From assembly GCA_017395425.1 (NCBI GenBank), contig JAFPUM010000033.1:1-39520 (forward strand): DNA of 39,520 bases. The letters run 5' to 3'. A program made the translations under genes and the position numbers. Positions 6,547-35,389 of the stretch are shown piece after piece. The notes under the pieces are model-generated. The model was not told where the DNA came from and did no database searches. It saw only the letters and a program-made list of their open reading frames with translations. The stretch is from Clostridia bacterium. GTDB taxonomy: Bacteria > Bacillota > Clostridia > Oscillospirales > Acutalibacteraceae. The first letter of the stretch is position 1; every line of letters begins with the position of its first letter.

Positions 6547-6581
6547 TTCACTATTCACTATTCATTCTTCACTATTCATTA
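6547..6581. repeat. Heptamer repeat, five units of TTCACTA type
   Basis: TTCACTA, TTCACTA, TTCATTC, TTCACTA, TTCATTA in sequence, six bases before tRNA-His. This is the reverse complement of the TGAATAG type at position 1. Confidence 0.85.
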
Positions 6582-6586
6582 TTTAT

Positions 6587-7084: not shown

Positions 7085-7126
7085 CTTTCTCGCTAAGGAG
7101 AACCAGAATCGGAAGGAGTGATTGGA

Positions 7127-7486
7127 TTGACGGCAAGCCCTATTCTGGATAAATCGATTGATTTTGCCGCGAGAATCGTTAAACTGTACCGCTATCTGAT
7201 CAAGGAACAGCATGAAACCATCATATCCAAGCAGATCATCCGCAGTGCTACCTCCATAGGGGCAAATGCGCACGAGGCAAGTTACGGTGTATCGAAAGCG
7301 GATTTTATTGCCAAAATGCATATTGCGCTCAAAGAAACAGCGGAAACCGAATATTGGCTCAGACTATTGGTAAAGTCGGGGTATATAACGCAGCGGGAAG
7401 GTGATTCTTTGATTCATGATTGCTTGGAAATCAAGCGTATGCTGATAGCTACATTAAATACAGCAAAGCAAAACTCTCCTTCCTGA
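7127..7486 (+). CDS. Four-helix-bundle protein (S23/IVS family)
   Basis: About 119 residues, all helical, with the family hallmarks SIDFAARIVKLYRYL, QIIRSATSIGANAHEA and FIAKMHIALKETAETEYWLRLL. The family was first seen as an ORF inside intervening sequences of 23S rRNA genes; free-standing copies are widespread and assemble as small helical oligomers of unknown function. I choose the TTG at 7127, eight bases after GGAAGGAG (7111-7118); the in-frame GTG at 7118 overlaps that site. A terminator follows directly, so it is a single-gene unit downstream of the heptamer hairpin. Confidence 0.88.
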   Translation: MTASPILDKSIDFAARIVKLYRYLIKEQHETIISKQIIRSATSIGANAHEASYGVSKADFIAKMHIALKETAETEYWLRLLVKSGYITQREGDSLIHDCLEIKRMLIATLNTAKQNSPS

Positions 7487-18851: not shown

Positions 18852-18855
18852 GGTT

Positions 18856-18904
18856 AGTGATGAGTGGTCAGTGGTCAGTGGTCAGTGGTCAGTGGTGAGT
18901 GACC
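18856..18904. repeat. Heptamer tandem repeat, seven AGTGGTC-type units
   Basis: AGTGATG, four perfect AGTGGTC, AGTGGTG, AGTGACC. The units share the AGTGNNN frame with the AGTGAAT rotation of the TGAATAG repeats. Confidence 0.88.
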
Positions 18905-19213: not shown

Positions 19214-19241
19214 TTGACGGAGAATTTTTTAGTGCTATAAT
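19214..19241 (+). promoter_or_regulatory. Promoter of the Pel-type operon
   Basis: TTGACG (19214-19219), 16 bases, TATAAT (19236-19241). It is the only clear promoter before the exopolysaccharide genes. Confidence 0.75.
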
Positions 19242-19247
19242 ATTAAC

Positions 19248-19365
19248 GATAGCTGAATTGCGTCCGAACGGCAGAGGTGTGTCCAATCGACAGACCGATG
19301 CGCTCGGCATTTTCCCCGGATGTACTCGATGTACGCAAATTTTACCAAAGATAGGAGACCTGTCT
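19248..19365 (+). promoter_or_regulatory. Structured 5' leader of the Pel-type operon
   Basis: About 118 bases with several possible stems: TTGCGT/ACGCAA closing the region, GGTGTGTC/GACAGACC (one mismatch), CCGA/TCGG and GTAC/GTAC. It does not show the conserved parts of the c-di-GMP-I (GEMM) riboswitch that I would recognise. A cis-regulatory role is only inferred. Confidence 0.4.
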
Positions 19366-21150
19366 ATGTTAAAACGAAGTGAATACATGGTTATGTCGAT
19401 GTCATTTTTGTTTATGCTCGCCATATTCCTTGTCATCTCGATCAACTACATCACCGATTCCTCCGCGAGCAACAACGATTTTACCGACAAATTCGACGCG
19501 ACTGCCCATGTCGCCGACATGACCAAGCTCGAGACGGAGTACATCGTCATCACCGGCGACGATCAGACCATTTATCCCAACGTGGTCAACGCGCTGAACT
19601 ATGCCAAAAAGGGCAATCAGGTGTTTTACAATGTGGAAGAAGTGCCGACCGATCTGCTCAAGGAATCCAAGGCAGCCATTGTCACCACCTCCAACCTCTC
19701 GAGCATCAGCGATATGGATTCGCTCATGCGCTATGTCAACCGCGGTCTGAATGTCTTTTTCGCGGCGCTGCCGCAGGAAGGTTCGGTGCAGTACGATACC
19801 TACCGCGAGGCGCTGGGCATCGTATCCCGCACGGGCGACGCGCAGCTGGAAGGCTTCCAGGCGTTTGAGGGCATGTATGCGCAGGGCAAGGTCGTGTGCA
19901 ACGAATATCCGCTGGAAGTGGAAAATATCCGTGTCGACGCCACCTGCCGCAAATACATCTTCCAGTATTCGTCCGACCCGGGCGCCGATCAGGCGGAGAT
20001 GGTGCCGCTGCTGTGGCGCACCGTTTACGGCGACGGTCAGATTTACATTCTGAATGCCGACTTCATGGAACAGAGTTACAGCACGGGTCTTTGCATCGGC
20101 GTACTGAGCTGTATGGAGCCGGAATATGCCTATCCCATCGTGGACGCCAAGGTCAACTATATCGACAGCTTCCCCTTCCTCAGCTATGAGAACGGCGACA
20201 GCATGATGAAGTTTTACAGCAGAGACTCCCAGTCGTTTATCCGCGATCAGGTGTGGCCCAGCCTTGTCACCATGATGAAGGATACCGACATCAAGTTTAC
20301 GGGTCTGTATTATGCCTATATCACCGACGCGGCGAGAAAGGCACAGTACAGCACCGATACGCTGTCTTATTTCAAGAAGCAGTTCAGCAAGTACGAATGT
20401 GAATTCGGTTTCGGCGGCTATCATCCCGACGTACTCAGCGGCAAGGAATTTGAAGAGGACGCCATGAACGAGAGCTATGACCAGTTCAAATGGAACATGG
20501 CGAACTACAATCTTGTCACCTACAAGTACTCCAATCAGATAACCCAGTCGGTGCAGGCGGATATGCTCCAGAAGCTCCGCAACATCAGGGTGTATGTCTG
20601 CAAGCTGGAAAGTGAGGACAAGGACGAATATCAGTCCAACCTCGGTTTTGCGGAAGGCAGCATTGTCAATATCCCGATCATCTGCGAAGAGATCAAGCCG
20701 AGCTTCCCCGATTACTGGAAAGCCTGCAACATGGCGTCCGGCATGGGACTTTCGACCCACTACTTCGACCTCTATGACGTCATCACCAATAATGCCAACG
20801 TCAACTATGAGTGGATGACCTATTCGCAGGATCTCTCCAAGCAGCTCAATCTGCTCAACAGAGGCACCTCGTGGCTGACCGAGAGAACCTCGGCGCAGGC
20901 GGGCTACCATGCCAAGCGTTATCTCTGCCTGATGCCGGAGATCACCTTTACCAGCAATTCACTGACCATCCGCTGCGAGAACTTTGACGACACGGCGAGC
21001 TTTATCGTCAAGACCGAAAGACGTCTCAAGCCCGATGACGCCAACTATACGGCGGAAGAAATCAGCGATAATTTCTATCTTGTCAAGATCCTCAAGCCCG
21101 AAGTGACGATCGACCTGATCGGCACGGCCGGTCAGAGCTACTTGTACTGA
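19366..21150 (+). CDS. PelA-deacetylase-like exported protein (DUF2194-type)
   Basis: 594 residues with one N-terminal membrane anchor (about 9-28, SMSFLFMLAIFLVISINYI) and a large outer domain. Its place before pelF and pelG, and its general shape, match the deacetylase-type PelA of Gram-positive pel loci, which removes acetyl groups from the Pel chain. A normal CE4 TFDD motif is missing. Candidate metal or catalytic residues are Asp267 in NYIDSFP, His353 in GGYHPDV and His465 in STHYFDLYD; this is a guess from spacing. An N-terminal part (about 55-240) resembles the Rossmann-like domain seen before such deacetylases. The ATG at 19366 follows AGGAG; an upstream frame to 19183 runs through the promoter and is not coding. 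Confidence 0.7.
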   Translation: MLKRSEYMVMSMSFLFMLAIFLVISINYITDSSASNNDFTDKFDATAHVADMTKLETEYIVITGDDQTIYPNVVNALNYAKKGNQVFYNVEEVPTDLLKESKAAIVTTSNLSSISDMDSLMRYVNRGLNVFFAALPQEGSVQYDTYREALGIVSRTGDAQLEGFQAFEGMYAQGKVVCNEYPLEVENIRVDATCRKYIFQYSSDPGADQAEMVPLLWRTVYGDGQIYILNADFMEQSYSTGLCIGVLSCMEPEYAYPIVDAKVNYIDSFPFLSYENGDSMMKFYSRDSQSFIRDQVWPSLVTMMKDTDIKFTGLYYAYITDAARKAQYSTDTLSYFKKQFSKYECEFGFGGYHPDVLSGKEFEEDAMNESYDQFKWNMANYNLVTYKYSNQITQSVQADMLQKLRNIRVYVCKLESEDKDEYQSNLGFAEGSIVNIPIICEEIKPSFPDYWKACNMASGMGLSTHYFDLYDVITNNANVNYEWMTYSQDLSKQLNLLNRGTSWLTERTSAQAGYHAKRYLCLMPEITFTSNSLTIRCENFDDTASFIVKTERRLKPDDANYTAEEISDNFYLVKILKPEVTIDLIGTAGQSYLY

Positions 21151-21177
21151 TATCAGAATAAAGGAGGAAATTACTCA

Positions 21178-22629
21178 ATGAAGGTTTGCTTGATTGCAGA
21201 AGGCAGCTATCCTTATACCTTCGGCGGCGTTTCCGCTTGGGTTCAGATGCTCATTAAGGGCGTGCCAAAAGTCGATTTTGCGATTCAGACCATTGTCGCC
21301 AACCGCTCGGACGCGAAGGAATGTAAGTTTGTGATCCCCGCCAATGTGGTTTCCATGCACGACACCTTCCTGACCGACGACGACGTGGTGCACAAGGTGC
21401 GCAACAAGACCACCATGAACCGCCGTGAAAAGGATGCCTTCCGCTCGCTGCTCTACGGCAGAAGCGTGGACTGGGTGACGATTTTCAATTACTTCGAGCA
21501 TAAGGATGTGTCGATCAACGGTCTGCTCATGGGCAAGGATTTCTATGATATTGTATCGGAATTCTACCATGACAAATATTCCCAGACGGTTTTCGTGGAC
21601 TTCCTCTGGAACACCCGTTCGCTCTACCTGCTGCTCTTCAAGGTGCTCAAGACCCCGATGGAAGTGGCGGATATCTATCACTGTGTGGCAACCGGTTATT
21701 CCGGCATTCTCGCCGCCAAGGGCAAGGTGCTCAACAACAAGCCCATGATTCTGAGCGAACACGGTATCTACACCCGTGAACGCGAAGAGGAAATCATCAA
21801 GACCAGCTGGACGCAGGGCGTTTACAAGGACATCTGGATTAACTATTTCTACTGTCTTTCCGACTGTGCCTACTATTACGCCGACAAGATCACCTCGCTG
21901 TTCAACGCGGCGCGGAATATCCAGCTGGAATTGGGCTGCGACGAGTCCCGCACGATGGTCATCCCCAACGGCGTAAACATTGCGGACTATGAGAGTTTCC
22001 CCCGCAAGGATCCGAGCGATCCCTTCATCAATATCGGCGCGCTGCTGCGTGTCACCCCGATCAAGGACGTCAAGACGCTGCTGAGCGCTTACAGCTTCGC
22101 CAAGGAAGAAGTTCCGGAGCTGAAGCTCTGGATTATGGGTCCGACCGACGAAGACCCCGACTATTACAACGACTGCGTGGAAATGGTGGAGGTCAACGAG
22201 CTGCAGGATGTGGTCTTTACCGGACGAATCAAGCCGAAAGACTATCTGGGCAAGATGGATATGCTGATTCTGACCAGTATCTCGGAAGGTCAGCCCATCG
22301 TTATGCTGGAAGCCATGGCGTGCGGTATTCCCTGTATTGCCACGCAGGTCGGCGACTGCGCGGGTCTGATTCACGGCGACCACGACGATATGGGCGACTG
22401 CGGCATTGTGACGCCCACCATGAACGTGGCGCGTATCGCCAACGCGCTGGTAACACTTGCCAACAATCCCCAGCTCCGCAAGAAAATGGGAGAGATCGGC
22501 ATGAAGCGCGTCGCGGATCATTACACCAAGGACGGCTGGATCAAGACCTATACCGAGATGTATCAGGAGCTTGAGGGCAAGCAGGTCAAGGTAGACAATT
22601 CCAAGGTGGAATCGTACAAAAATAAATAA
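21178..22629 (+). CDS. pelF: Pel polysaccharide glycosyltransferase PelF (GT4)
   Basis: 483 residues, cytoplasmic GT-B enzyme of family GT4. The start KVCLIAEGSYPYTFGGVSAW is the PelF hallmark. The nucleotide-sugar site has the E-x7-E pair Glu370 and Glu378 in EGQPIVMLE. In Pseudomonas PelF polymerises the Pel chain from UDP-sugars (UDP-GalNAc/GlcNAc). AAAGGAGG precedes the ATG at 21178. pelG begins 21 bases after the stop. Confidence 0.93.
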   Translation: MKVCLIAEGSYPYTFGGVSAWVQMLIKGVPKVDFAIQTIVANRSDAKECKFVIPANVVSMHDTFLTDDDVVHKVRNKTTMNRREKDAFRSLLYGRSVDWVTIFNYFEHKDVSINGLLMGKDFYDIVSEFYHDKYSQTVFVDFLWNTRSLYLLLFKVLKTPMEVADIYHCVATGYSGILAAKGKVLNNKPMILSEHGIYTREREEEIIKTSWTQGVYKDIWINYFYCLSDCAYYYADKITSLFNAARNIQLELGCDESRTMVIPNGVNIADYESFPRKDPSDPFINIGALLRVTPIKDVKTLLSAYSFAKEEVPELKLWIMGPTDEDPDYYNDCVEMVEVNELQDVVFTGRIKPKDYLGKMDMLILTSISEGQPIVMLEAMACGIPCIATQVGDCAGLIHGDHDDMGDCGIVTPTMNVARIANALVTLANNPQLRKKMGEIGMKRVADHYTKDGWIKTYTEMYQELEGKQVKVDNSKVESYKNK

Positions 22630-22650
22630 TCGGAAGGAAAGAGGCGCTTT

Positions 22651-24228
22651 ATGGCTGGTATAGGTTTTGAATTAAAAAAGCTGATGGGCAAGGGCAACAT
22701 TGTCAACATGATCGCCGGCACCACTTACGCGGTCATGGTGACAATCGGTCCTACCATTCTGCTCGCCAGCACACTGATGCTCATGTACATTGTGCTGCCG
22801 TACTCCACGGAGGCCTTCGCCGACAGAGAATTCCTCTCGTCCACGATCCTCTATGTATTCATTTTCTCCATGATCATCACGTCCCCGCTCAACTCGGTGC
22901 TTTCGAGATATGTGGCGGATAAGATTTATCAGGATAAGATCGTCGATATCATGCCCGCCATCAACGTCGGACTGGCGCTGAACATGGTGCTGGCGTTCCT
23001 GACCTCGCTCTACATCGTGTTCCGCGAGATCGAAGTGGGTATCGATCCCTTCTTCACATTCCTGTCCTACTGGTTCTTCATGGTCATCAATATGTCGCTG
23101 TATCTGATGACCTATGTATCGGCGCTGAAAGACTACGGCAAGATCGGTATGGCGTACTTCATCGGCATTCTGGCGGCGATTGTCTTCGCGATTGTGAGCG
23201 TGTATGTGTTCCGCAACGCGGTTTCGTACTCCATTCTCGGTTCGATGGTGCTTTGCTTCTCGATCATTGCCTCCATGCTGTATGCCAACCTGAAAACGTA
23301 TTTCAAGGTTTCCAGTAAGAATTACTCGGAGGCGCTGAAATACTTCCTGCGGTTCAAGCCGCTGTTTATCACCAACTTCTTCTACACCTTCGGACTGTAC
23401 GTCCATAACTTCGTCTACTGGACCACCGATTACGGCGCCTACATCGGCAACGTCTTCTGGACGTCGCCCGCCTACGACATGGCAACCTGTCTGGCGCTCT
23501 TCACCAATATCTCGACGCTGGTTATCTTCGTTGTCAAGGCGGAGACTTCGTTCTTCGGCTCGTATCAGGCATACCTCGAGACGGTCAACGGCGGCGGCGG
23601 CGAGGACATCGAACTGGCGAAGAAGAACATGTTCCGCACGCTCAAGAGCGAGCTGTTCTACATCATCCGCTTCCAGTTCATCATTACGATCATTCTCTTC
23701 ATTCTCGCGATGATCTTCCTGCCCGACTTCGGCTTTGAAGGTCTGATTCTGGCGATTTATCCCGCACTGGCGGCTGCCTACTTCGTCACCTTCATCATGT
23801 ACTGCGAGATCATCTTCCTCTTCTATTTCGACGACGGCGTGGGTACCTCGATGGTAGCCATCGGCTTCTTCCTCGGCACGCTCATTGGCGCGATCATCAC
23901 CACCTACTTCAACATCGTGTTCTCGGGTCTGGGACTGTTCCTCGGCGCGTTTATCGGCTGGACCATCGGTTATATCCGCCTGCGCCGCGTCATCAGCAAG
24001 ATCGACGAGCAGATTTTCTGCCGCGGCAACATCGTCAACACCACCTCCGCCGGCAAGATGACCAAGAAGCGCATGGAAGAGGCGGACGATCAGCTTGCCT
24101 ACTTCAAGATGTCCAAGGAAGAAAAGATGCAGCATGACGTCGAGAAGCAGAAGCAGGAGATGTTTGCCCAGCAGAAAGCGGAACGCGAGGCGGCACTCAA
24201 GAGCGTGTCGCAGAGCGCCAAGAAATAA
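22651..24228 (+). CDS. pelG: Pel polysaccharide membrane transporter PelG
   Basis: 525 residues with about 12 membrane helices, related to the MOP flippase superfamily. The N-terminus MAGIGFELKKLM is characteristic of PelG. It should carry the chain made by PelF across the membrane. The last 65 or so residues form a charged, Lys/Glu/Gln-rich cytoplasmic tail (from about residue 460, KMTKKRMEEADDQLAYF onwards) likely to be a coiled coil and longer than I expect for the family. GGAAGGAAAGAGG precedes the ATG. Confidence 0.92.
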   Translation: MAGIGFELKKLMGKGNIVNMIAGTTYAVMVTIGPTILLASTLMLMYIVLPYSTEAFADREFLSSTILYVFIFSMIITSPLNSVLSRYVADKIYQDKIVDIMPAINVGLALNMVLAFLTSLYIVFREIEVGIDPFFTFLSYWFFMVINMSLYLMTYVSALKDYGKIGMAYFIGILAAIVFAIVSVYVFRNAVSYSILGSMVLCFSIIASMLYANLKTYFKVSSKNYSEALKYFLRFKPLFITNFFYTFGLYVHNFVYWTTDYGAYIGNVFWTSPAYDMATCLALFTNISTLVIFVVKAETSFFGSYQAYLETVNGGGGEDIELAKKNMFRTLKSELFYIIRFQFIITIILFILAMIFLPDFGFEGLILAIYPALAAAYFVTFIMYCEIIFLFYFDDGVGTSMVAIGFFLGTLIGAIITTYFNIVFSGLGLFLGAFIGWTIGYIRLRRVISKIDEQIFCRGNIVNTTSAGKMTKKRMEEADDQLAYFKMSKEEKMQHDVEKQKQEMFAQQKAEREAALKSVSQSAKK

Positions 24229-24272
24229 TCCGGCGTCTGACCGGTTACGCATAACGGAAGGGGGCAGCGCCG

Positions 24273-25193
24273 TTGAACAATCTGAACGTTGTGATTACGG
24301 TGGACGACAATTATATCCGTCCCGCGCTGATCATGCTGGAATCGCTGTTTGAACACAATCCGGCGCCGGTGCATGTATGGCTGCTCCACTCCAACGTGTG
24401 CGATGACAACCTCTGTCGGCTGACGTCGCACGTCGAAGCACGCGGCGGGCAGTTTACCGACATACGGGTGGCGGGCGGACTCTTTGAGGGAGCGCCGGTC
24501 AACAAGTATTTTACAAAAGAGATGTACTACCGCCTGCTCATTCCCCGGCTGCTGCCGGAGGAAGAGGAACGGGCACTCTATCTCGACCCCGATATCATCA
24601 TCCGCGGAGATCTCCGGCGGCTGTACGACATGGATTTTCAAGGAAAAATGATGGCGGCGATACCCGATTATCTGGGCGATTCCTATTACCCCGAACGCAA
24701 GAAGAATCTGGGGCTGGGCGAAGAATACCGCTACATCAATTCCGGCGTGATTCTGTTCAACAATCCCCTCATGCGGGCGGAATTCGATCTGGACGATATG
24801 TTCGGATTCCTTGCGCGGGAGGGCGGAGCGTATGAATTCCCCGATCAGGATCTGATCAACGTCTACTTCAAGGACCGGATTCTCTATGCGCCGCGGGAAT
24901 TCAACTTTACGACGGAATATGTCAGTGTGGGAGATTTCCTGCGCTATGTGTTCAGTCCCCGGTACCGTCGGAGCGAGCAGGTGACGGTTGCCCACTATAT
25001 GGGCAAGTGCAAACCGTGGAAACCCTCCTACTACTACAAATACTACGGTCTGTACCAATCCTATCTCAAGCCCTATCTGACGCCGGAGGAAAAGCGGCAG
25101 TTCCGGTTGCGCCCGTGGCTGGTGCTGAAAGCCGTGACGACGGCGGTATGGCGGGTGCTTTTCGGCGGAAGCAGACAGGCAAAGGAGGCATGA
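24273..25193 (+). CDS. GT8-family glycosyltransferase (first copy)
   Basis: 306 residues, GT-A fold of family GT8 (LgtC/glycogenin-like, retaining). Visible are NVVITVDDNYIRPALIML at the start, FTKEMYYRLL, the metal-binding DPD (Asp105-Asp107 in LYLDPDIIIRG), INSGVILFN, PDQDLINVYF and the late HYMGKCKPW. It transfers a hexose from a UDP donor. Translation starts at a TTG eight bases after GGAAGGGGG. The next gene is a paralogue. Neither is part of the known core pel set, so they may add side sugars or act on a linked glycan. Confidence 0.9.
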   Translation: MNNLNVVITVDDNYIRPALIMLESLFEHNPAPVHVWLLHSNVCDDNLCRLTSHVEARGGQFTDIRVAGGLFEGAPVNKYFTKEMYYRLLIPRLLPEEEERALYLDPDIIIRGDLRRLYDMDFQGKMMAAIPDYLGDSYYPERKKNLGLGEEYRYINSGVILFNNPLMRAEFDLDDMFGFLAREGGAYEFPDQDLINVYFKDRILYAPREFNFTTEYVSVGDFLRYVFSPRYRRSEQVTVAHYMGKCKPWKPSYYYKYYGLYQSYLKPYLTPEEKRQFRLRPWLVLKAVTTAVWRVLFGGSRQAKEA

Positions 25194-25197
25194 GCGC

Positions 25198-26118
25198 GTG
25201 AATGTATTGGTAACGGTATCGCAGAATTACGTGCCGTATATGCTGACCATGCTTAAATCCCTCTTTCAGCACAACAAATGCCAAATCACGGTGTATCTCT
25301 TTCACTCGCGCATCGACGAAGCGACGCTGACCAAAGCGCGCGATTATATCGAATCGCAGGGGCAGACCTTCTCGCCCATCCGGGTGGGGAGCGACGTGTT
25401 TGACGACGCGCCGGTGAATATGCACTTCACCAAAGAGATGTATTACCGGCTGCTGGCGAGCAAGTTGCTGCCGGAGAGTGAGGAGCGGGTGCTGTATCTC
25501 GATCCCGACATTCTCATACGGGGCTCGGTGGAAGAATTCTACTGTCTGCCCTTCGACGGCAATATGCTCATCGCGATGGCGGATCCCCCGCAGGGCAATG
25601 ATCCCCGGTGTCCCGATAACCGTCCGCATTGGCAGCGGCTGGGACTTCCGGAAGGCAGTTCCTACATCAACAGCGGGGTGCTGCTGATGAATCTGAAGCT
25701 CATGCGGGAGCAGGGGTTCGACGTCAACCGCATTTTCGGGATCATCGAGGAAAAGCGTTCCGACCTGATCTATCCCGATCAGGACGCCATCAACATCTAC
25801 TTCCGCGATTCCATGAAGCTCTGGAAAAACCTCTACAATTACAATCCCGGTCTGCTGGCGGATGAGGTTGTCAAGTGGGGACTGAGCAAGAAATACCGGC
25901 GGCGGGAGAACCCCATCATCGTGCATTTCATGGGACCGGTCAAGCCGTGGAGCATTCATTACCGCAACAAATACTGCTATGAGTATCAGGCGGTCTACAA
26001 GGAATTTGCCCCGCTGGGGTATCGGCTGCAATGTCCGTTCCGTCCGCTGGTGGCGCTGTGCGGGTATGTGCTGACGGTGTTCTGCATGGTGTTCCATATA
26101 CAGCGTCCGGGCAAATAG
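25198..26118 (+). CDS. GT8-family glycosyltransferase (second copy)
   Basis: 306 residues, same family and length as the preceding gene and clearly its paralogue (shared FTKEMYYRLL, LYLDPDI, DQD and HFMGPVKPW blocks). The DPD is at Asp102-Asp104. Between the DPD and the INSGVLLMN block it differs (MADPPQGNDPRCPDNRPHW), pointing to another acceptor. It starts at GTG four bases after the previous stop, preceded by AAAGGAGG. Both copies keep the metal and acceptor motifs, so both look active. Confidence 0.9.
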   Translation: MNVLVTVSQNYVPYMLTMLKSLFQHNKCQITVYLFHSRIDEATLTKARDYIESQGQTFSPIRVGSDVFDDAPVNMHFTKEMYYRLLASKLLPESEERVLYLDPDILIRGSVEEFYCLPFDGNMLIAMADPPQGNDPRCPDNRPHWQRLGLPEGSSYINSGVLLMNLKLMREQGFDVNRIFGIIEEKRSDLIYPDQDAINIYFRDSMKLWKNLYNYNPGLLADEVVKWGLSKKYRRRENPIIVHFMGPVKPWSIHYRNKYCYEYQAVYKEFAPLGYRLQCPFRPLVALCGYVLTVFCMVFHIQRPGK

Positions 26119-26131
26119 GTCTTCTTTCAGA

Positions 26132-26165
26132 AATAATTCCGCCGATCCTGCGGTCGCGGATTATT
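26132..26165 (+). other. Hairpin between GT8 and pelD
   Basis: AATAATTCCGC (26132-26142) pairs with GCGGATTATT (26156-26165) with one bulged base. There is no T run, so transcription probably continues into pelD. Confidence 0.5.
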
Positions 26166-26218
26166 GATACAATTGCCATCCAACAAATCCAACAGGTCAA
26201 AATATAACAAGGAAGGTT

Positions 26219-28435
26219 GTGGGTACTATTAAAGTTTTGGTTGTAGGTTCATATGGATTCTTTACCAATGCTTTGGTGCAGCGTCTTGCGAAGGAAGGCT
26301 GCGAAATCTATATGATAACGGGAAAAAACTCAAAGTTAAAGGGCAGAGGTCTGCCGAGACACATCAATTACGATTTTGCCCTTGACGATCCGCTGATCCA
26401 GAATATTATCGACAGTATCAGCCCCGACGCCATGGTGTTCATGGGGGCGCAGGATACGTCCTTCGTATGGAACAGCAACGCAGACGCTGCCGTGTACAAC
26501 GCCACGGTGTCCAACATTCTGACCTGCGCCAGCAATGCCGGCGTCAAGCACATGGTGTATCTGTCCTCGACCGATGTCTACGGCACGGACTACGATATGC
26601 CCATTACCGAGAAGACCAAGCCTGCGCCCACCAGCATCAAAGGTCTCACCCTGCTCAACGGCGAAGGTCAGTGCAAGATTTACAACGACAACACCGGTCT
26701 GAAATCGGTCATTCTGCGTCTCCCCACGGTCTACGGTCCGCAGGCGGACGTCGATGAACCGGCGACCTTCATCACCAACTGCTTCCTCTATGCCAAGATG
26801 GGCGAACCGCTTGAATGCGACCTGGACATGGAATACAAGACCATCTTCCTCGGCGACGCCGTGGACGCGGTTTACAGAGCCATTGCCAATACGTCCATTC
26901 CGCGCGGCACCTATAACGTGGAAGGCAACAGCTATGTGTCCAACCGCGAAATCGTGGAAATGGTGGAGAAGATCAGCGGCAGCAAGCTCAACATCACCGA
27001 CAAGAAGTCGGCGGGCAAGGGCTGCACCTGTAACCCCGTCGGCACACTCTATCAGAAGGCGACCGAGTACAACCCGATTGTCTCGGTGGAAAAGGGTCTG
27101 GAACGCACCTACAAGTGGGTCAACAGCAACTACAATGCCCTGAGTGAAAACTACATGGCGCAGAAGAAGCGCAACGAAGGCGCGGCGTGGTCCGAGAGCA
27201 AGGCGCGTATGAAGAGCATTGCCAAGGGTCTGCTCGCCTATCTCGAAAGCATTGCGCTGTGCGCGATTGCCTGTCTGGGCACCTATTTTGCCAGTGAGTA
27301 CACGATGCTCAAGGGCATGGATTTCTTCATCATCTATATCATCATCATGTCCGTTGTGTACAGCATCACCCATTCCTACATTTCCATCTTCCTGTCGTCC
27401 ATCATGTATGTGGTCATGAAGATGGTATCCGGCATGGAATTTGCCGACGTGGTACTGGACTATACGACGCTCATCAAGATTCTGTTCTTCTTCCTGGTCG
27501 GTATTCTGGTCGGTTACAGCAAGGATCGTCTGAAACTCCGCAACACCGAGTTGACCGAAGAAAAAGCGGCGCTTCAGGAAGAGTTGGCGCGTATCTATGA
27601 CATTTCCGAGCGTCACATCCAGATCAAGAAGATGTTTGAGGAACGCCTCATCAACTACGACAACTCCATCGCGAAGGTGTACTCCATCGTTTCCCAGCTC
27701 GACCTGCTCGACTCCGAAAAGATCGTCGGTTCGGCTCTGGACGTGGTCACGCAGATTATGGGCGTGGGCGACGTTGCCATTTACGTCAAGAGCAACGAAG
27801 GTCTCTACCGTCTGTCGGGCGCTTCTTCGAGACGCGCGCAGAAGATGAAGAACATCATCAACCTCGAAGATTACGAACAGCTCGAAGGCGTGCTGCTCGA
27901 AGAGAGAATCTTTGTCAACCGCAAGCTCGAAGCTGATCTGCCGTCCATGGTTGCGCCGGTCTTTTCCGAGCAGAACATGATCTACATGATTATGCTCTTT
28001 AACATGGATTTCGACAAGATGACGCTCTATCAGGAAAATCTGTTCTCGGTTCTTTCCAAGATTATTGCCTCCAGCTTCGAGAAGGCATACCGCTATCAGA
28101 GCGATACGAAGGATACCCGTTATGTACCCGGCAGCAATATCCTGCTGGCGAGCGCTTTCAGAGAAATCGTGCAGACCAAGCTGGAATCCGGCAACGTCAC
28201 CGACTTTGCCGTTCTCAAGGCGCCGGTCAGCAAGGCGGATCTCATGGAGAAGGGCGCCGCGGTTGCCGGCGTGCTGCGTGACAACGACTACGTCGGTCTG
28301 AGCGATACGGATCCCAACGCGCTGCTGCTGCTGCTCAACAACACAGGCGAAAAGGATCTGCCGTTCGTGTACAAAAAGCTCCAGCGCATTGACTTACAGG
28401 CAGAGGTGGTGTCTTTAGATGATTACAGGAGTTAA
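26219..28435 (+). CDS. pelD: SDR-PelD fusion, c-di-GMP receptor
   Basis: 738 residues in four parts. Residues 1-300 are an extended SDR (epimerase-like) domain: Rossmann strand with G10-x-x-G13, LSSTDVYG (115-122) and RLPTVYGP. The catalytic Tyr-x3-Lys expected near 141-150 is not there (sequence KGLTLLNGEGQCK), and the third Gly of the nucleotide loop is Thr16. About 338-434 hold four membrane helices, 435-480 a coiled coil, 480-630 a GAF-like domain. 640-738 is a degenerate GGDEF domain: the active motif is lost (DTDPNA) but the inhibitory-site motif RDND (687-690) remains, the site by which PelD binds c-di-GMP. PelD is needed to activate PelF/PelG. The start is GTG at 26219 after AAGGA. 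It overlaps pelE by 17 bases. Confidence 0.85.
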   Translation: MGTIKVLVVGSYGFFTNALVQRLAKEGCEIYMITGKNSKLKGRGLPRHINYDFALDDPLIQNIIDSISPDAMVFMGAQDTSFVWNSNADAAVYNATVSNILTCASNAGVKHMVYLSSTDVYGTDYDMPITEKTKPAPTSIKGLTLLNGEGQCKIYNDNTGLKSVILRLPTVYGPQADVDEPATFITNCFLYAKMGEPLECDLDMEYKTIFLGDAVDAVYRAIANTSIPRGTYNVEGNSYVSNREIVEMVEKISGSKLNITDKKSAGKGCTCNPVGTLYQKATEYNPIVSVEKGLERTYKWVNSNYNALSENYMAQKKRNEGAAWSESKARMKSIAKGLLAYLESIALCAIACLGTYFASEYTMLKGMDFFIIYIIIMSVVYSITHSYISIFLSSIMYVVMKMVSGMEFADVVLDYTTLIKILFFFLVGILVGYSKDRLKLRNTELTEEKAALQEELARIYDISERHIQIKKMFEERLINYDNSIAKVYSIVSQLDLLDSEKIVGSALDVVTQIMGVGDVAIYVKSNEGLYRLSGASSRRAQKMKNIINLEDYEQLEGVLLEERIFVNRKLEADLPSMVAPVFSEQNMIYMIMLFNMDFDKMTLYQENLFSVLSKIIASSFEKAYRYQSDTKDTRYVPGSNILLASAFREIVQTKLESGNVTDFAVLKAPVSKADLMEKGAAVAGVLRDNDYVGLSDTDPNALLLLLNNTGEKDLPFVYKKLQRIDLQAEVVSLDDYRS

Positions 28436-29381
28436 TCTTTCGCAGATTGCGCAAGGCTTCCGTTTTACGCTCAATGCCCGTGACCCCAACTTCGTCTATC
28501 AGATCGTTCTGATCAACACCATTATTTCGCTGGTCTTTCTGGTGTTTTTCACGCTGCTGGGCAAGTTCAAGCCGGCGCTGTGCAAAACGATTGTCATGCT
28601 GCTCACCCCGCCGTTCGGTGTGATCTGCTTCTTTGTGAATTTCATCATTTCGCTGTTTGACCGCAAGTCCGACATCGACTACCTCGAACTGACATTCAGC
28701 CGCGAAAAGAGAGAATTTGCCCAGCAGACCGACTACGAAACCGAAAAGGAATTCGTGCCGCTGGAAGAAGCGCTCATCATTTCGGATGTGCAGGATAAGC
28801 GCCGCGCACTGCTCAACGTGCTGAAGGCGGACGTTTCCAACAACATGAAGTCGCTGGTCAAGGCGCTGGACAACGAAGACTCCGAGACGGCGCACTATGC
28901 GGCTTCGGCACTGATGGACGTGCTGCAAAAGTATTCCAAGAAGCTGTCGGGACTTTCGGTCAAGTTCAAGGAAGACCCCGAGAATGCCGACGTCAACAAG
29001 GATTATGCCGATACGACCTATGAATATATCAGCAGCGGCGTACTCGGCGAGATCGAGGTCAAGAAGTACGCGCATCTGTATGTGGATCTGATCGACAATC
29101 TCAACAAGTACCATCCGGATATGCTGGATACCGAGCATTATCACAATGTCGTGGAATGTCTGCTCAAGATCGGTCGGTATGACGACGCCGATAAATGGGC
29201 GGAACTTTCGATCGAACGCCAGCCCAACATGGAGCAGTCTTATCTGAACGCGCTCAACGTCAAGTATAAGACGGAAAAATGGGACGAATTCAAAAGCGTG
29301 CTGGATCGTATGCTGAAATCCGGCGCCCAGCTTTCGGAAAAGGGCATTGGCATCGTTCGTTTCTGGAAAAGCAAGAATTAA
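28419..29381 (+). CDS. pelE: PelE-like membrane protein
   Basis: 320 residues. Two close membrane helices (about 24-46 and 53-82) are followed by a cytoplasmic helical domain with repeat-like character, including KALDNEDSETAHYAASALMDVL and a C-terminal TPR-like part (CLLKIGRYDDADKWAELSIERQP and the following unit). PelE in known pel loci has the same membrane-plus-TPR layout and partners PelD. The start overlaps the end of pelD by 17 bases, so the two are translationally coupled, which supports the pairing. Sequence likeness alone would not suffice to name it. Confidence 0.7.
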   Translation: MITGVNLSQIAQGFRFTLNARDPNFVYQIVLINTIISLVFLVFFTLLGKFKPALCKTIVMLLTPPFGVICFFVNFIISLFDRKSDIDYLELTFSREKREFAQQTDYETEKEFVPLEEALIISDVQDKRRALLNVLKADVSNNMKSLVKALDNEDSETAHYAASALMDVLQKYSKKLSGLSVKFKEDPENADVNKDYADTTYEYISSGVLGEIEVKKYAHLYVDLIDNLNKYHPDMLDTEHYHNVVECLLKIGRYDDADKWAELSIERQPNMEQSYLNALNVKYKTEKWDEFKSVLDRMLKSGAQLSEKGIGIVRFWKSKN

Positions 29382-29643
29382 GAGGCTGAGACCGGCAGAG
29401 TTCCGGTTGACGGACGAACGGCAATCCACCGGCGGAGTGGAAAAGATTCCGCTCCCCGGCGGGTTGTTTCTGCCGTCATAGAAGACTGCCCGGAGCCGTC
29501 AGCTCTTATCAAACGTATGGAAGCCGTTCTAAGGAACGATGCAGAAAATGACGGATTACATTCTGTATCGTTCCTAAGACCCTTTTGCTTTTGAGAAAAG
29601 GGAAGGGGTGGATTCCGAATGCTAGGAGGGAGCAAAAAAACAG
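29382..29643. other. Structured intergenic region before the GT-C-like gene
   Basis: Holds a small ACCGG/CCGGT stem (about 29392-29408), a long stem-loop (ACGGCAATCC...GGAG, 29418-29436, with CTCC...GGGTTG...TGCCGT, 29452-29476), the palindromic repeat at 29528-29579, and CCCTTTT/AAAAGGG (29580-29602). No promoter is evident. Confidence 0.6.
29528..29579. repeat. Palindromic repeat element, short copy
   Basis: Arms 29528-29546 and 29561-29579 match over 17 of 19 positions with a 14-base loop. The right part matches 15974-16008 in the trkA leader. Confidence 0.8.
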
Positions 29644-32040
29644 ATGTTATCATTTAACGATGCTCTTGCCAACTTATCAAATGTTCCGTTTATCAGCAAT
29701 ATTTTGTCCAAAGATTTCTGGACGCCTACGGTGATGCAGAACGTATGGTCGTTTATCTGGTTTTTCGTCGCCTATGTGCTGGTGTTTGTTGTCATACCGG
29801 CGCGGATTCTGCGGCTGAATCTCTGTGACGGCAATTTGTTCGACAACGCGCTCAAAAGCCTGGTTATCAGCCAGACATGTGTGTCATTAGTGGTCTATGT
29901 GCTTTCTTTTATGAGAATTTACAATACGGTCACACTGGTGCTGGCATTGATTGTGGGCGTGATGTTCTATCAGAAATTCAAGGAGAAAATCCGCTACCGT
30001 GAACGTGTCAACCATTTGATCTACGATTTTTCCGATATCATCACCGGACAGCGGAAGCTGTCGCTGATTCTCATTCCCGCGTGGCGTCGGTTTTTTGACA
30101 GCATTGCCAACGGACTCAAGTATTTTATTAAATTTTTCTTCAACAAAAATGTTGTCTATCATCTGATCTGCACCTTCACGATTGGCATTCTGGTGCTGCG
30201 GCGCATGTATTTTGCGCTGGAAAGTCAGAGCTATCCGACGTCCGACGTCTTTGTCCACACGTCGTGGGTCAATTTCCTGGACGCGGGATATATCTACTGC
30301 GACGGTATTTATCCGTTTTCCATGCACAATATTGTGTCGGCGTTTTCGCGTCTGACCTTTATTGACGTGGTGACGGTGATGCGTTTTATCGGTCCGCTCA
30401 ACGGCATTCTGTGCGGTGTGATGCTGATGATGTTCATCTCGCGGTTCTTCAAGAGCCCGGCGGCTGCCACCATTACAGGATTGGTGTACTGCCTGAGCAA
30501 CTTCGGCAGCGGTGCGCTGGTGGATCGTATGTTCTTCTCGCTTCCGCAGGAATTCGGTATGTTTTTCATTTTCCCGACAGCGTATTTCATGATCCGTTTC
30601 ATCGAGGATATGGATAACATGGACGGTGTGACCTTTGCGATGGCGGCGTCCATGACGGTGTCAGTACACTTTTACAACGCGATTTTCGCGGTGCCGCTGT
30701 GTATCTGCATGGCGATTCCCTTCCTTTTTGATATTATCCGCAAAAAGGATCTGCTGTGGAAGATGATTCTTGCGGTCATTCTGGCGGCGGCGATTGCGCT
30801 CGCGCCCTTTGCGGTAGGACGTATTCTGGGCTACCGCTGGCAGGGATCGCTGGATTGGGCCGTGAGCATGATGAGCAAATCGGATGACAAATCCGCTGAT
30901 CAGCAGAGCCAGGAGGTCAAGCAGCAATCGTCTGACCAGAACAACGAGGAAGCGGCGGAAAAAGGATCTTCTTTCGTGGAGAAATCCATTAATTCCTTTG
31001 GCTGGATGGCGAAGGCATTCACCGCCTACTGGGGTTATATGGTGCTGGGCTTCACGGTGCTGGGTCTGCTGCTGGGATTAGTGGCGCTGCTGACCGAACA
31101 GAAAACCGGCGGAAAGGTTGCCATAGGGCTATGTCTGAATATGGTGATGTTCAACTACCTGCTGATGTACCCGGACTATTTCGGACTGCCTTCGCTGGTG
31201 GCAAACGACCGTGCGCAGGGCTATCTCGCCTATATCGCTGCCATCATGATCGGCGTGCCGTTCGGCGTGTTCTGGCTGTTCTTTGAAAAGAAGCTGCGCC
31301 CCATTCGCTGGATCAGCTCGATCGCGGTGGTGACGGCGATGGCGAGCCTGATTTTCCTGACCGGTGCGACCTATGTCACCAGTGCGTATTTCCGCCTGAC
31401 CTATTCCTCCGTGACGGAGAATTACTACAAAATCAAGAATACCCATCGCAAGAATACATGGACGATTGTTTCGACCGTTGATGAACTGGCGCTGACACGA
31501 AACAAGGGCTGGCATTACGAACTGTGGGAGTTCATTTTCTCCATGGAGCAGTATGAACCCACCCGCGTGGTGCAGATTCCGACGGAGTATGTTTACTTCA
31601 TCATCGAGAAGCGCCCGCTCAAATATGCTGATACAACCTTCCTCGCACAGCCGCTGGAACTGTACGGCAGAGTGAATGCGCAGTATGCCGAAGAACTCAT
31701 GACCGAACAGACCCTGCGTACCAACCGCCGGAGCGCGTACTATACCCATTACGATAACCGGCGCGCGCTGATGTCGAAGGCGTATTACTGGGCGCAGAAG
31801 TATATGCAGTACTTCCCCGACCAGATGCGGGAGTATTATGAAGATCAGAATATCGTGATTTACGAGATCAAGCAGAATATGTTTGCGCTCAACAATTTCG
31901 CGATTGACTACGGCTACAATACCAAGACCATCGACCAGTGGCTGGAGGAGCATCCCGAAGCCATCGGCAAGGATACCCAGACGGTGTCCGACAGCGATCT
32001 GGTGGTATCCGGCACCGATCTCACGCCCACGACGGCGTAA
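29644..32040 (+). CDS. Large polytopic membrane protein, GT-C-like
   Basis: 798 residues with about a dozen membrane helices over the first 590 and a soluble C-terminal domain of about 200 residues, probably outside. The layout is that of GT-C glycosyltransferases, which use polyprenyl-phosphate sugars on the outer face. The loop SYPTSDVFVHTSWVNFL (about 196-212), with Asp201 and His205, is a candidate catalytic first outer loop. A hydrophilic Ser/Gln/Glu-rich insert (about 415-445) separates two helix groups. I cannot place it in a named family. A polyprenyl-phosphate GT2 encoded at 34533 could supply its donor. AGGAGGG lies 13 bases before the ATG, rather far. Confidence 0.6.
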   Translation: MLSFNDALANLSNVPFISNILSKDFWTPTVMQNVWSFIWFFVAYVLVFVVIPARILRLNLCDGNLFDNALKSLVISQTCVSLVVYVLSFMRIYNTVTLVLALIVGVMFYQKFKEKIRYRERVNHLIYDFSDIITGQRKLSLILIPAWRRFFDSIANGLKYFIKFFFNKNVVYHLICTFTIGILVLRRMYFALESQSYPTSDVFVHTSWVNFLDAGYIYCDGIYPFSMHNIVSAFSRLTFIDVVTVMRFIGPLNGILCGVMLMMFISRFFKSPAAATITGLVYCLSNFGSGALVDRMFFSLPQEFGMFFIFPTAYFMIRFIEDMDNMDGVTFAMAASMTVSVHFYNAIFAVPLCICMAIPFLFDIIRKKDLLWKMILAVILAAAIALAPFAVGRILGYRWQGSLDWAVSMMSKSDDKSADQQSQEVKQQSSDQNNEEAAEKGSSFVEKSINSFGWMAKAFTAYWGYMVLGFTVLGLLLGLVALLTEQKTGGKVAIGLCLNMVMFNYLLMYPDYFGLPSLVANDRAQGYLAYIAAIMIGVPFGVFWLFFEKKLRPIRWISSIAVVTAMASLIFLTGATYVTSAYFRLTYSSVTENYYKIKNTHRKNTWTIVSTVDELALTRNKGWHYELWEFIFSMEQYEPTRVVQIPTEYVYFIIEKRPLKYADTTFLAQPLELYGRVNAQYAEELMTEQTLRTNRRSAYYTHYDNRRALMSKAYYWAQKYMQYFPDQMREYYEDQNIVIYEIKQNMFALNNFAIDYGYNTKTIDQWLEEHPEAIGKDTQTVSDSDLVVSGTDLTPTTA

Positions 32041-32069
32041 TCGGCAGGATGCTTCACGAAGGGAACGGG

Positions 32070-33065
32070 ATGAGCATGGAGCGGATCAGTATTATCGTTC
32101 CGGTGTACAACTGCGGCGCCTTTCTGCCGCGGTGTGTGGATTCGCTGCGAAAGCAGACCTATCCGGAACTGGAAATTCTTCTGGTGGACGACGGTTCCAC
32201 CGACGGCACCGCCGCCTTATGTGACAGTCTGGCGGCGGCTGACAGCCGTATCGTGGTGCTTCACCGTGCCAACGGCGGCGTTTCTTCCGCCCGCAACGCG
32301 GGTCTGGAAGCGGCGCGCGGAGCCTATATTGCTTTTGCCGACGCGGATGACTATGTGGAACCCGATCATCTTCTCCGTTTATATCAAGCCATGCAGACCC
32401 ATCACAGCGACGTTTCCATCTGCAGCTATCTCACCGAGCAAGAGGACAAATGTACGCCTCCCCGTGAGGGAAATGAAGGCAGCGTCCATCCTTACCGTGA
32501 AGTATGTTATGACCATGACAGCGCTGTCTGCGAACTGCTCGCGGGCGGCGCTGTCGGCGGTTATGTGTGGAACAAGCTCTATCGGCGGGAATTGCTGGAA
32601 GGGTGCGGGTTTGAAAGCGGGGTAAAGATTCTGGAGGATCTGCTCTTCAATTACGGCGTGTTTGAAAAGGTGAAGACGGCGGTTTTCATCGACACGAAGT
32701 CCTACCATTATATCCAGCGCGGACAGAGCGCCATGCACCGTGGGTTCGGCGAGGAACACAAGGCGATGGTGGAAACTGCGCGTCGGATTGCGGATAGGAC
32801 AGCGTCGTGCGGGGGAGAAGTGGCTGCCGCGGGACAGGGATTGCTGGCGACGACGATTCTGTGGGTGGTAGACGTGATGGCGGAGCATGGACCGTATGAC
32901 GCGGCGCTGGTCAGGGAATACCGTGCAGCCTTCCGTCCGCTGCGCGCCGGCTATCTCCGGTTGAAGCGGGTGCCGTTTTCCTACCGGGCGAGCGCGATCT
33001 TTTTCAGCATGGGTTACGGTGTTTACCGTGTGTCGGTAAAGCTGGCAAGAAAGATCATGGGGTGA
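32070..33065 (+). CDS. GT2-family glycosyltransferase
   Basis: 331 residues with the GT-A fold of family GT2. The start ISIIVPVYNCGAFLPRCVDSL, the VDDGSTDGT loop, the NGGVSSARNAGLEAARG segment and the metal site FADADDYV (Asp91-Asp93) are all present. The later VWNKLYRRELL segment is usual for capsule and EPS glycosyltransferases. It is probably inverting, with a UDP-sugar donor, in the cytoplasm. I choose the ATG at 32070, five bases after GAAGGGA; the ATG at 32076 is an alternative. It follows the GT-C-like gene by 29 bases. Confidence 0.92.
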   Translation: MSMERISIIVPVYNCGAFLPRCVDSLRKQTYPELEILLVDDGSTDGTAALCDSLAAADSRIVVLHRANGGVSSARNAGLEAARGAYIAFADADDYVEPDHLLRLYQAMQTHHSDVSICSYLTEQEDKCTPPREGNEGSVHPYREVCYDHDSAVCELLAGGAVGGYVWNKLYRRELLEGCGFESGVKILEDLLFNYGVFEKVKTAVFIDTKSYHYIQRGQSAMHRGFGEEHKAMVETARRIADRTASCGGEVAAAGQGLLATTILWVVDVMAEHGPYDAALVREYRAAFRPLRAGYLRLKRVPFSYRASAIFFSMGYGVYRVSVKLARKIMG

Positions 33066-33073
33066 ATGCTTTT

Positions 33074-34303
33074 ATGAAAGACAACACCAATCAGGACGGC
33101 AGAAAAAAAGTTCTGTTTGTCACCAATACGATGGGACGTGCCGGCGCCGAAAAATGTCTTCAGGCACTGCTGGAGCTGCTCGACCCGAAAGAGTACGACC
33201 TGTCGGTCTATTCCATCATTAACCGCGGCGAGTTGTATGACGATATGCCGGACTATGTACACATTCTCAACCGCAAGCCCTGTACCAAGTCGGTGCTGGA
33301 CAATGCGGGACTGTTTGCGATTGCGCGCCTGATTTTCTGGGATTTGCTCAAACGCTTCCGGTTCATCACCTATCTGCCGTATTTTTTCCGGGTGCTGGCG
33401 CACCAGATCAAGGTGAAGCATCTGGATTTCAGCAAGCTCTTCTGGATGCTGCTGGCACGCGGCGCCAAGCGCTTTGACGAAGAGTACGACCTTGCCGTGG
33501 CGTTCATCGAGGGTGCCGCGACGTATTATGTCGCGGATTTTGTCAAAGCCAAAAAGAAAGCGACGTATGTGCATATCGACTATCTCGCGGCGGGCTATTC
33601 GCCCAAACTTGACAGGAAATATTACGACAAATTCGACCGCGTGTTCTGTGTATCGGACACCGTGCGCAAGGTCTTTTTGCAAGCCTATCCCGAATATGCC
33701 GACAAAACCTTTTTCTTTCACAACATGGTGCCGCGGGAGCGCATTCTGCGGCTTGCCAAAGAGGGGAAAGGGTTTGACGACGGATTCGACGGACTGCGCA
33801 TTCTCACGGTGGGACGGCTGCACTATCAGAAAGCCTACGATCTGGCGATTCCGGCGCTTGCGGAACTGCGCCGCCGGGGACACAATGTCCGGTGGTACGT
33901 CATCGGCGAGGGTGCCGAAGAAGATAATCTCCGTGCGCTGATCAAACAGAACGGCGTGGAGGACAGCTTTATCCTCATGGGCGGCTTCCCCAATCCTTAC
34001 CCGTACATCGCGGGATGCGATATTTACTCGCAGGCGTCGCGGTTTGAGGGCTGGTGCATCGCGCTGGCGGAATCGCTGGTGCTGGCGCGTCCGGTGCTGG
34101 CGTCGCGCTGTGCGGGGAACGAGGAGCAGGTCACGGACGGCGAAACCGGCGTGCTGATTGATCTCAGCACCGAAAATATTGTGGCAGGCATGGAAAAACT
34201 GATCACCGATCCGGCGCTGCGGGCGAAGTTCACCGAGAATCTCAGCGGCGTGGCGCTGGATTTCCGGAAGGATCTGGAAATGCTTCACGCGCTGACCAAT
34301 TAG
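33074..34303 (+). CDS. GT4-family glycosyltransferase
   Basis: 409 residues, GT-B fold of family GT4. The N-terminus reads KVLFVTNTMGRAGAEKCL, the middle has LTVGRLHYQKAYDLAI, and the donor site is EGWCIALAE with Glu325 and Glu333 (E-x7-E). It is a retaining cytoplasmic transferase typical of polysaccharide clusters. The ATG at 33074 is preferred because GGGGTGA sits nine bases upstream; a GTG at 33062 that overlaps the preceding stop is possible. It ends the tight run of genes begun at 19366. Confidence 0.9.
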   Translation: MKDNTNQDGRKKVLFVTNTMGRAGAEKCLQALLELLDPKEYDLSVYSIINRGELYDDMPDYVHILNRKPCTKSVLDNAGLFAIARLIFWDLLKRFRFITYLPYFFRVLAHQIKVKHLDFSKLFWMLLARGAKRFDEEYDLAVAFIEGAATYYVADFVKAKKKATYVHIDYLAAGYSPKLDRKYYDKFDRVFCVSDTVRKVFLQAYPEYADKTFFFHNMVPRERILRLAKEGKGFDDGFDGLRILTVGRLHYQKAYDLAIPALAELRRRGHNVRWYVIGEGAEEDNLRALIKQNGVEDSFILMGGFPNPYPYIAGCDIYSQASRFEGWCIALAESLVLARPVLASRCAGNEEQVTDGETGVLIDLSTENIVAGMEKLITDPALRAKFTENLSGVALDFRKDLEMLHALTN

Positions 34304-34410
34304 CCGCGCAGCGGCGGGGATTCCAAAGGGACGAGTCCCTTTGGCAGGTCAAGGGCAGCGCCCTTGCAGGGAGTGGGACGGCGTCCCACGAGGCAGCACA
34401 ACGTGCTGCC
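34304..34410. repeat. Array of five small perfect hairpins
   Basis: In order: CCGC-gca-GCGG (34304-34314), CCAAAGGGAC-ga-GTCCCTTTGG (34323-34344), CAAGGGC-agc-GCCCTTG (34350-34366), GTGGGAC-ggc-GTCCCAC (34373-34389), GGCAGCAC-aac-GTGCTGCC (34392-34410). Loops are two or three bases. No T run follows any of them. The remaining bases to 34515 hold nothing I recognise. Confidence 0.9.
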
Positions 34411-34532
34411 GAGCAAGACGAGCCAAGACCAACAACGGGGAAGGGCGAATACAGAAGCCGTTCCCCATCCGAATGCCCCATCCCGAAATCACAAACCATT
34501 GATCTCCTTCACATAGGAGGTGAGGAAATATC

Positions 34533-35315
34533 ATGATATCCATAGACAAAAAAACACTGATTCTGATACCCGCCTTCAATGAGGAGGAGAGTATTGTCAG
34601 CGTGATCGGGAATATCCGCCGGGAATGCGGGAATGTGGATGTACTGGTCATCAACGACGGTTCCCGCGACAAGACCGCCGAACGCGCCGCGGAAGCGGGT
34701 GCGACGGTGGTATCGCATATTTATAACATGGGCTACGGCGTATCGCTGCAGACCGGCTATAAATACGCCGTCGATCACTGCTATGAATATATCATCCAGA
34801 TGGACGCGGACGGACAGCACGATGTATGCAATATCCGCGCGATTTATCAGGAACTGACACAGGGCAAGCGCCATTATGACATTGTCATCGGCTCGCGGTT
34901 TCTGGGCAAGGACAGTAAGATGAAAGTGGGCATTGCCAAGAAGGTTGCCATTGAATTTTTCAATATGGCAATCAAGCTGGTGACGCGCAAGAGCTTTACC
35001 GACCCCACGTCGGGCTTGCAGGGACTCAGTCGGCGGGCGTTTACTGCCTATTCGCTGTACGATAACTTCGACACGAATTATCCCGACGCGAATATCATCA
35101 CGAAGATGCTGCTCAATGGCTACCGGCTCAAGGAAGTGCCGGCGGTCATGCACGAGCGGGAGAGCGGCGTGAGTATGCACAGCGGGCTGATGAAGAATAT
35201 TGCGTATATGTTCACCGTTACGCTCAATATTGTGGTGGTGGTGATGCAGTTCCATCTCATCAAGAAGGGACGGAAGGACGTCATCGAAGAGCTGGAAATC
35301 ATCACGGCGGAGTAA
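34533..35315 (+). CDS. GT2 polyprenyl-phosphate glycosyltransferase-like
   Basis: 260 residues, GT2 of the DPM1/polyprenyl-phosphate type. Visible are LILIPAFNEEESIVSVI, VINDGSRDKTAERA, the NMGYGVSLQTGYKYA segment, the metal site QMDADGQHD (Asp91-Asp93), GSRFLG and the DPTSGLQG loop. A hydrophobic C-terminal stretch (about 225-245, MFTVTLNIVVVVMQF) may bind the membrane. Such enzymes load a sugar on a lipid phosphate that GT-C enzymes then use, which would link it to the 29644 product. It has the strongest ribosome site of the region (AGGAGGTGA, 34516-34524) and stands apart after the hairpin array, ending at a bidirectional terminator. Confidence 0.9.
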   Translation: MISIDKKTLILIPAFNEEESIVSVIGNIRRECGNVDVLVINDGSRDKTAERAAEAGATVVSHIYNMGYGVSLQTGYKYAVDHCYEYIIQMDADGQHDVCNIRAIYQELTQGKRHYDIVIGSRFLGKDSKMKVGIAKKVAIEFFNMAIKLVTRKSFTDPTSGLQGLSRRAFTAYSLYDNFDTNYPDANIITKMLLNGYRLKEVPAVMHERESGVSMHSGLMKNIAYMFTVTLNIVVVVMQFHLIKKGRKDVIEELEIITAE

Positions 35316-35344
35316 ACCCTTCCCGACCGAACCGTTCTGAAACC

Positions 35345-35389
35345 AAAAAGGAGACACGCACAGATCATCCTGTGTATGTCTCCTTTTTT
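35345..35389. terminator. Bidirectional terminator
   Basis: AAAAAGGAGACA (35345-35356) pairs with TGTCTCCTTTTT (35377-35388). A and T runs on the two sides let it serve both the GT2 gene and the convergent lipoprotein gene. Confidence 0.88.

Follow-up and report, generated by a model that had tools for sequence, protein, structure and literature searches.

What does a Pel-type exopolysaccharide locus make when its presumed deacetylase has apparently lost the metal site and a set of additional glycosyltransferase (GT) genes stands beside it? The question is raised by a 39,520 nucleotide contig from a Clostridia bacterium (JAFPUM010000033.1 of assembly GCA_017395425.1; this whole stretch is referred to below as the window), which carries a Pel-like locus of 11 genes, all on the forward strand (19366-35315), between trkA-trkH on one side and a convergent alaS on the other. 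Our best explanation, to which we give a probability of about one half, is that Pel-type synthesis and export have been kept, that deacetylation has been lost, and that a pair of proteins resembling ArnC and ArnT glycosylates the exported backbone. Retention of synthesis and export and the loss of deacetylation are well supported; the chemistry of the decoration is what we infer from the genes that accompany them.

The synthase and the exporter were readily recognised. The product of pelF (21178-22629), a GT4 enzyme, matched the NCBIfam model PelF NF038011 with 336 bits (cut-off 100), the next best model reaching only 88 bits, and both glutamates of its EX7E motif were kept in all 112 aligned rows, including that of the window. 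The product of pelG (22651-24228), an exporter of the multidrug/oligosaccharidyl-lipid/polysaccharide (MOP) type, matched Pfam PelG PF16933 with 390 bits (cut-off 29) and was the sole match to this profile across the genome. An initial annotation, made from the DNA alone, had called this a Gram-positive Pel-type locus and had proposed that the call would fall if unrelated families scored better than the PelF and PelG models; the opposite was found, both models winning by a wide margin, and the window contains both the synthase and the exporter of a Gram-positive Pel locus. PelB and PelC did not turn up in general scans of the window proteins, although no search aimed at them was made.

PelD and PelE were identified less directly, as none of the window proteins matched a curated model for either. 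The pelD-like gene (26219-28435) encodes a degenerate short-chain dehydrogenase/reductase (SDR) domain, a membrane region and a C-terminal part with an RxxD motif (LRDND), and its identity comes from homology to the genes at the PelD position (a profile of 103 PelD rows) and from its position in relatives. The SDR domain was recognised by SDR models and there was a weak match to DUF4118 (E 0.034); the GAF and degenerate GGDEF domains, for which no model matched, are assumed from published PelD proteins. The RxxD motif, a putative cyclic di-GMP (c-di-GMP) I-site, is kept in the window and in all printed aligned rows but three (L075, L081 and L206). The SDR motifs were degenerate in the window, as in most of 14 rows inspected, and intact in PelD of L100 (Paenibacillus), L102 (Psychrobacillus) and L221. 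An SDR-PelD has been described before from streptococci, clostridia and actinobacteria with altered residues, and as possibly functional in Brevibacillus (PMC7112168). The pelE-like gene (28419-29381) had no Pfam family above cut-off, and its homologue sits after pelD in most of the loci that were compared, among them those of class I (described below). Together PelD, PelE, PelF and PelG would make a PelF-type polymer, most likely one resembling alpha-1,4-linked N-acetylgalactosamine (GalNAc), and would export it across the membrane under the control of c-di-GMP.

The first gene of the locus (pelA-like, 19366-21150) gave a different picture. Its 594 aa product belongs to DUF2194 (PF09960, 136 bits, cut-off 30.4) and has an N-terminal transmembrane helix followed by folds like those of a carbohydrate-binding module (CBM) and a carbohydrate esterase (CE). 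A search of PDB sequences (E up to 1) returned a single match, 9ZAU (E 1.1e-8), which is the structure of Bacillus cereus PelADA (PMC13254593), and a predicted model (predicted local distance difference test score 78) had the deacetylase Agd3 as its best Foldseek match. However, comparison with the catalytic residues of B. cereus PelADA (D262, D263, H350, H354, R458 and H488) indicated, by alignment as for all residue statements here, that the equivalents of D263, H350, H354 and R458 are replaced in the window and throughout its genus, with those of D262 and H488 being retained. It is therefore well supported by alignment that the deacetylase metal site (one Asp and both His) and the catalytic Arg are gone. 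The label 'PelA-deacetylase' that the initial annotation had given this protein holds as far as family and fold are concerned, but it cannot be upheld as a whole because the catalytic metal site is missing.

To place this loss, 119 stretches around PelG genes were annotated, drawn from the genus, the family, the class and the phylum, as well as from a second family (f28), with five named loci among them; the sample is weighted to Clostridia and within it to f28. PelG matches that fell short of the family cut-off were not taken as regions, nor were small fragments, apart from genus genomes G006 and G007; two further genomes, G833, whose PelG is in pieces, and G847, at 32 bits together with its neighbours, were counted as above cut-off but likewise not taken. 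A PelF+PelG tree was built by a quick method, with support from the Shimodaira-Hasegawa-like approximate likelihood ratio test only, from 107 loci and the window (108 rows), 12 of the 119 loci being left out as PelF or PelG was missing or short. It splits 49 rows without the large membrane protein described below (MP), which we call class I, from a group of 59 (class II) with support of 100. Class II holds every locus with MP, the genus of the window, two loci with MP elsewhere in the genome (L157 and L198) and two that branch at its base and lack MP (L069 and L218). As the root was placed at the midpoint, the tree does not decide which class is older, and as class II is one clade, counts within it are not independent events.

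The metal triad was intact in none of the 57 class II PelA proteins, as against 45 of the 49 in class I, fragments of 450 aa or less being excluded; two further proteins remained unclassified, that of L216, which appears to be a second tandem copy, and that of L219, from a locus with MP, and neither has the triad. Gene content followed the same division. Class I loci had CotH (36/49), VTC (34/49), DUF4956 (34/49) and DUF4832 (23/49), and none of the 49 had MP, GT8, GT4 or the polyprenyl-phosphate-type GT2 (GT2b). At the 44 class II loci outside the genus, where one locus obtained from two collections (L098 and L160) is counted twice, as it is among the 57 proteins, we found MP in 42, GT2b in 39, DUF4832 in 37, GT4 in 35, a DUF2304-type protein in 31 and CotH in one. 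These comparisons indicate that class II is a distinct Pel-type clade, marked by loss of the PelA metal site and by MP, and no description of it turned up in searches of a library of PubMed Central papers, without subscription journals and preprints. Separately, in the class I loci L193, L195 and L200 (and apparently at L216) PelA occurs as a tandem pair, one copy with the metal site and one without, the latter having DG in place of DD and GYNQ in place of GYNH; judged by these motifs, this would be a second kind of PelA devoid of catalysis, there next to an intact copy.

Within the genus the locus was uniformly arranged. A true pel locus was present in 16 of 18 genomes and collinear up to the contig ends, the 16 stretches with pel genes (L048-L063, from 15 genomes) having the order of the window as far as their contigs extend. 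G006 and G007, both fragmented assemblies, had only marginal PelG matches (32 and 29 bits), no adjoining pel genes and no DUF2194 in the genome. In a survey of the family, PelG was above cut-off in 7 of 200 genomes, three of them from this genus. The relatives are metagenome-assembled genomes, several of them uncultured Ruminococcus sp. or Clostridiales of the RUG series and one from goat omasum, so that a rumen source is likely. The nearest relative in the tree outside the genus (support 99) is L205, which comes from a genome of f28 with two Pel loci (G1104) and has the order A-F-G-D-E-GT4-GT8-GT2b-MP-GT4. The arrangement A-F-G-D-E and a GT8 are thus common to the genus and at least one other lineage.

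Every gene that the initial annotation had named was present in its place, and the unusual order and the extra glycosyltransferases it had described were borne out by family models and by the series GT8-GT8-...-GT2-GT4-GT2, collinear beside pel genes across the genus. Its emphasis on the two GT8 genes, on the other hand, was misplaced. These genes (24273-25193, PF01501 118 bits; 25198-26118, 120 bits; cut-off 24.3 for both), with a DPD motif in 15/15 and 14/14 aligned rows respectively, had a counterpart in just one of the 44 class II loci outside the genus, by profiles built from these loci, and so seem to be nearly genus-specific. The clade is marked instead by MP, together with GT2b and GT4. 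In the window the GT4 gene lies at 33062-34303 (PF00534, 100 bits) and follows a GT2 gene at about 32049-33065 (PF00535, 139 bits), the start codon of which was picked by eye, downstream of a GTG at 31938.

MP (29644-32040, 798 aa) is an integral membrane protein that belongs to no Pfam family, and its predicted structure has a GT-C glycosyltransferase fold. Full-length MP was confined to class II genomes and one decayed class II locus (L236 of G463), at which pelD, pelE, the GT-C gene and a dead pelA are left, pelF is a 144 aa piece and pelG is missing. GT2b (34533-35315) carries a DADGQHD motif and matched ArnC (E 1.5e-8) and dolichol-phosphate mannose synthase (E 7e-7) in PDB; its top NCBIfam model, PpgS, gave 104 bits, under the cut-off of 370, and it passed no equivalog cut-off. 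Such a pairing of a polyprenyl-phosphate-type GT2 with a GT-C fold protein is also seen in three-component transmembrane glycosylation, as in SccN/SccM of Streptococcus mutans and ArnC/ArnT. The differences are that the acceptor would here be the polymer exported by PelF/PelG, that the MP family has no Pfam model and that no flippase for a lipid-linked sugar was recognised among the window genes; in this connection the DUF2304-type protein at 31 of the 44 other class II loci was considered. Distant relatives of MP were also seen at another kind of locus (L237, L238, L240 and L241), with a PelF-like DUF3492 GT4, a GT2b-like gene and large membrane proteins and with no PelD, PelE or PelA seen; three of these loci (L237, L238 and L241) have two such relatives apiece and a DUF2304 match. 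At L239 the MP relative adjoins CotH instead.

On this basis we suggest that GT2b charges polyprenyl phosphate with a sugar and that MP would move the lipid-borne sugar onto the emerging polymer outside the cell, so that the extracellular modification would have been switched, with decoration in place of deacetylation. The two GT8 proteins, GT2 and GT4 may build or add further sugars, and would do so more in this genus than in others. PelA, keeping its helix and its CBM- and CE-like folds, would carry out no deacetylation; its most likely role is that of a guide without catalytic activity, holding the polymer on its exit from PelG. The product would then be decorated or mixed, as the initial annotation had proposed, now with a more specific mechanism, and these results suggest that certain bacteria produce a well-known biofilm polymer in decorated form. 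More tentatively, and as only one possible history, a large Clostridia Pel clade may have switched its polymer chemistry by losing deacetylation first and then gaining the GT-C family and the polyprenyl-phosphate GT2, with PelA as an export guide and a neutral branched Pel as product; the loss is placed first because L069 and L218, at the base of class II, combine a dead PelA with a CotH module that is still present.

Other readings of the same genes have to be weighed. MP could be a ligase or anchoring enzyme, comparable to O-antigen ligases and oligosaccharyltransferases, that attaches either the polymer or a lipid-linked glycan to an acceptor on the surface and so gives a cell-bound capsule rather than a free matrix. 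We regard this as unlikely, since MP is mostly paired with a GT2 of the polyprenyl-monophosphate type (39/44 loci outside the genus), which fits the transfer of single sugars, and PelFG export is not known to involve a lipid-linked polymer. Alternatively, no Pel-like GalNAc polymer is made at all, PelF having changed its specificity and the glycosyltransferases building the repeat of a heteropolysaccharide that PelG exports. The six glycosyltransferase-type genes of the window besides pelF (MP included) and the four loci at which distant MP relatives adjoin a DUF3492 GT4 would suit this idea, and Whitfield et al. left the question of the product open for Roseburia (PMC7112168). We nevertheless doubt it, as the window PelF still reaches 336 bits with the PelF equivalog and DUF4832 genes stand at 37 of the 44 class II loci outside the genus; these are of the type of SIR_1591, the protein of which is reported to disrupt Pel aggregates of Streptococcus intermedius (PMC12345266). 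None was found at the locus in 12 genus rows, which also lacked CotH and DUF2304, and weak matches (28-52 bits) occur away from it in 17 of 18 genus genomes. Finally, that deacetylation persists, in trans through an unrelated deacetylase or by a metal-independent activity of PelA, with the extra glycosyltransferases as ordinary accessories, is very improbable, for although the genus retains the Asp262 and His488 equivalents, only 18 and 19 respectively of the 57 class II proteins do so, mostly genus members, and no genus genome has a second DUF2194, the deacetylase family that was surveyed.

Among known systems, the locus shares PelF, PelG, a PelD with RxxD, a PelE-like protein and an adjoining DUF2194 PelA with the pelDEADAFG operon of the B. 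cereus ATCC 10987 type (PMC7112168, PMC13254593), but differs in the PelA metal site, in the addition of MP and GT2b, in the absence from the locus of the CotH, VTC and DUF4956 genes of class I, and in its order, which is not D-E-A-F-G but A-F-G-GT8-GT8-D-E (10.0 kb from PelA to PelE), followed by MP, GT2, GT4 and GT2b. The S. intermedius cluster likewise has an SDR-PelD and a PelA of the PelADA family; its extra genes are described as CotH, a polyP polymerase, an MgtC/ACT-type protein and DUF4832, where the window has GT-C and GT2b, and its authors think the polymer predominantly GalNAc, perhaps neutral, with all five pel genes needed (PMC12345266). The Roseburia clusters also place pel genes within a larger glycan cluster, the function of which their authors left open, and neither the loss of PelA residues nor the GT-C protein is mentioned in section 6 or the early discussion of that account (PMC7112168); L097, from an uncultured Agathobacter sp., falls into class II on three counts, its place in the tree, its gene content and its PelA residues. 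The window PelA has the CBM-like and CE-like folds of the deacetylases Agd3 (CE18) and PelADA (CE26) but misses their metal ligands. Recent work is reported to show that Pel production in B. cereus needs PelADA catalysis. Class II, in which PelA is conserved with its metal site apparently lost, would speak, as a natural experiment, against applying that rule to every Pel system; in it a structural role of PelA is set apart from catalysis, and the polymer to be expected is neutral. The MP family, moreover, gains a predicted fold together with a partner system, and testable predictions follow for the matrix of rumen and related bacteria. If true, neutral branched Pel would be a type of polymer so far undescribed, and its makers would be the rumen bacteria of this genus and probably many other Clostridia.

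Adjacent genes of the locus overlap or are separated by at most 44 bp, except for gaps of 100 bp before pelD, 262 bp before MP and 229 bp before GT2b. The start of pelA is an ATG at 19366 preceded by AGGAGA, and upstream, where the initial annotation had let the locus begin, lies a promoter-like site (19214-19241, forward strand; TTGACG-N16-TATAAT, with TG preceding the second hexamer and 11 of 12 consensus positions), which is no proof of function; the region has 22 such sites against 14.6 (SD 3.9) in shuffled sequence, so the evidence for this one is weak. Elsewhere in the window heptanucleotide tandem repeats (TGAATAG, AATGCGG, TTCACTA, ACTATTC and GGTCAGT) lie mostly between genes (1-28, 5105-5136, 6547-6583, 6985-7021, 7049-7086 and 18852-18901). 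Perfect runs of at least three units numbered three in 295 kb of the window and 16 genus loci (two in the window and one in L063) and none in 1.68 Mb from 95 other loci. The contig ends (39392-39520) in 10.8 copies of a perfect 12-base tandem repeat, CCTTCGGCACGT. The gene at 9312-14045 encodes a 1577 aa protein of the BspA type that has leucine-rich repeats as well as PKD/Ig-like repeats and is probably a large surface protein. A protein of the 23S rRNA intervening-sequence family is encoded at 7118-7486, directly downstream of five clustered tRNA genes.
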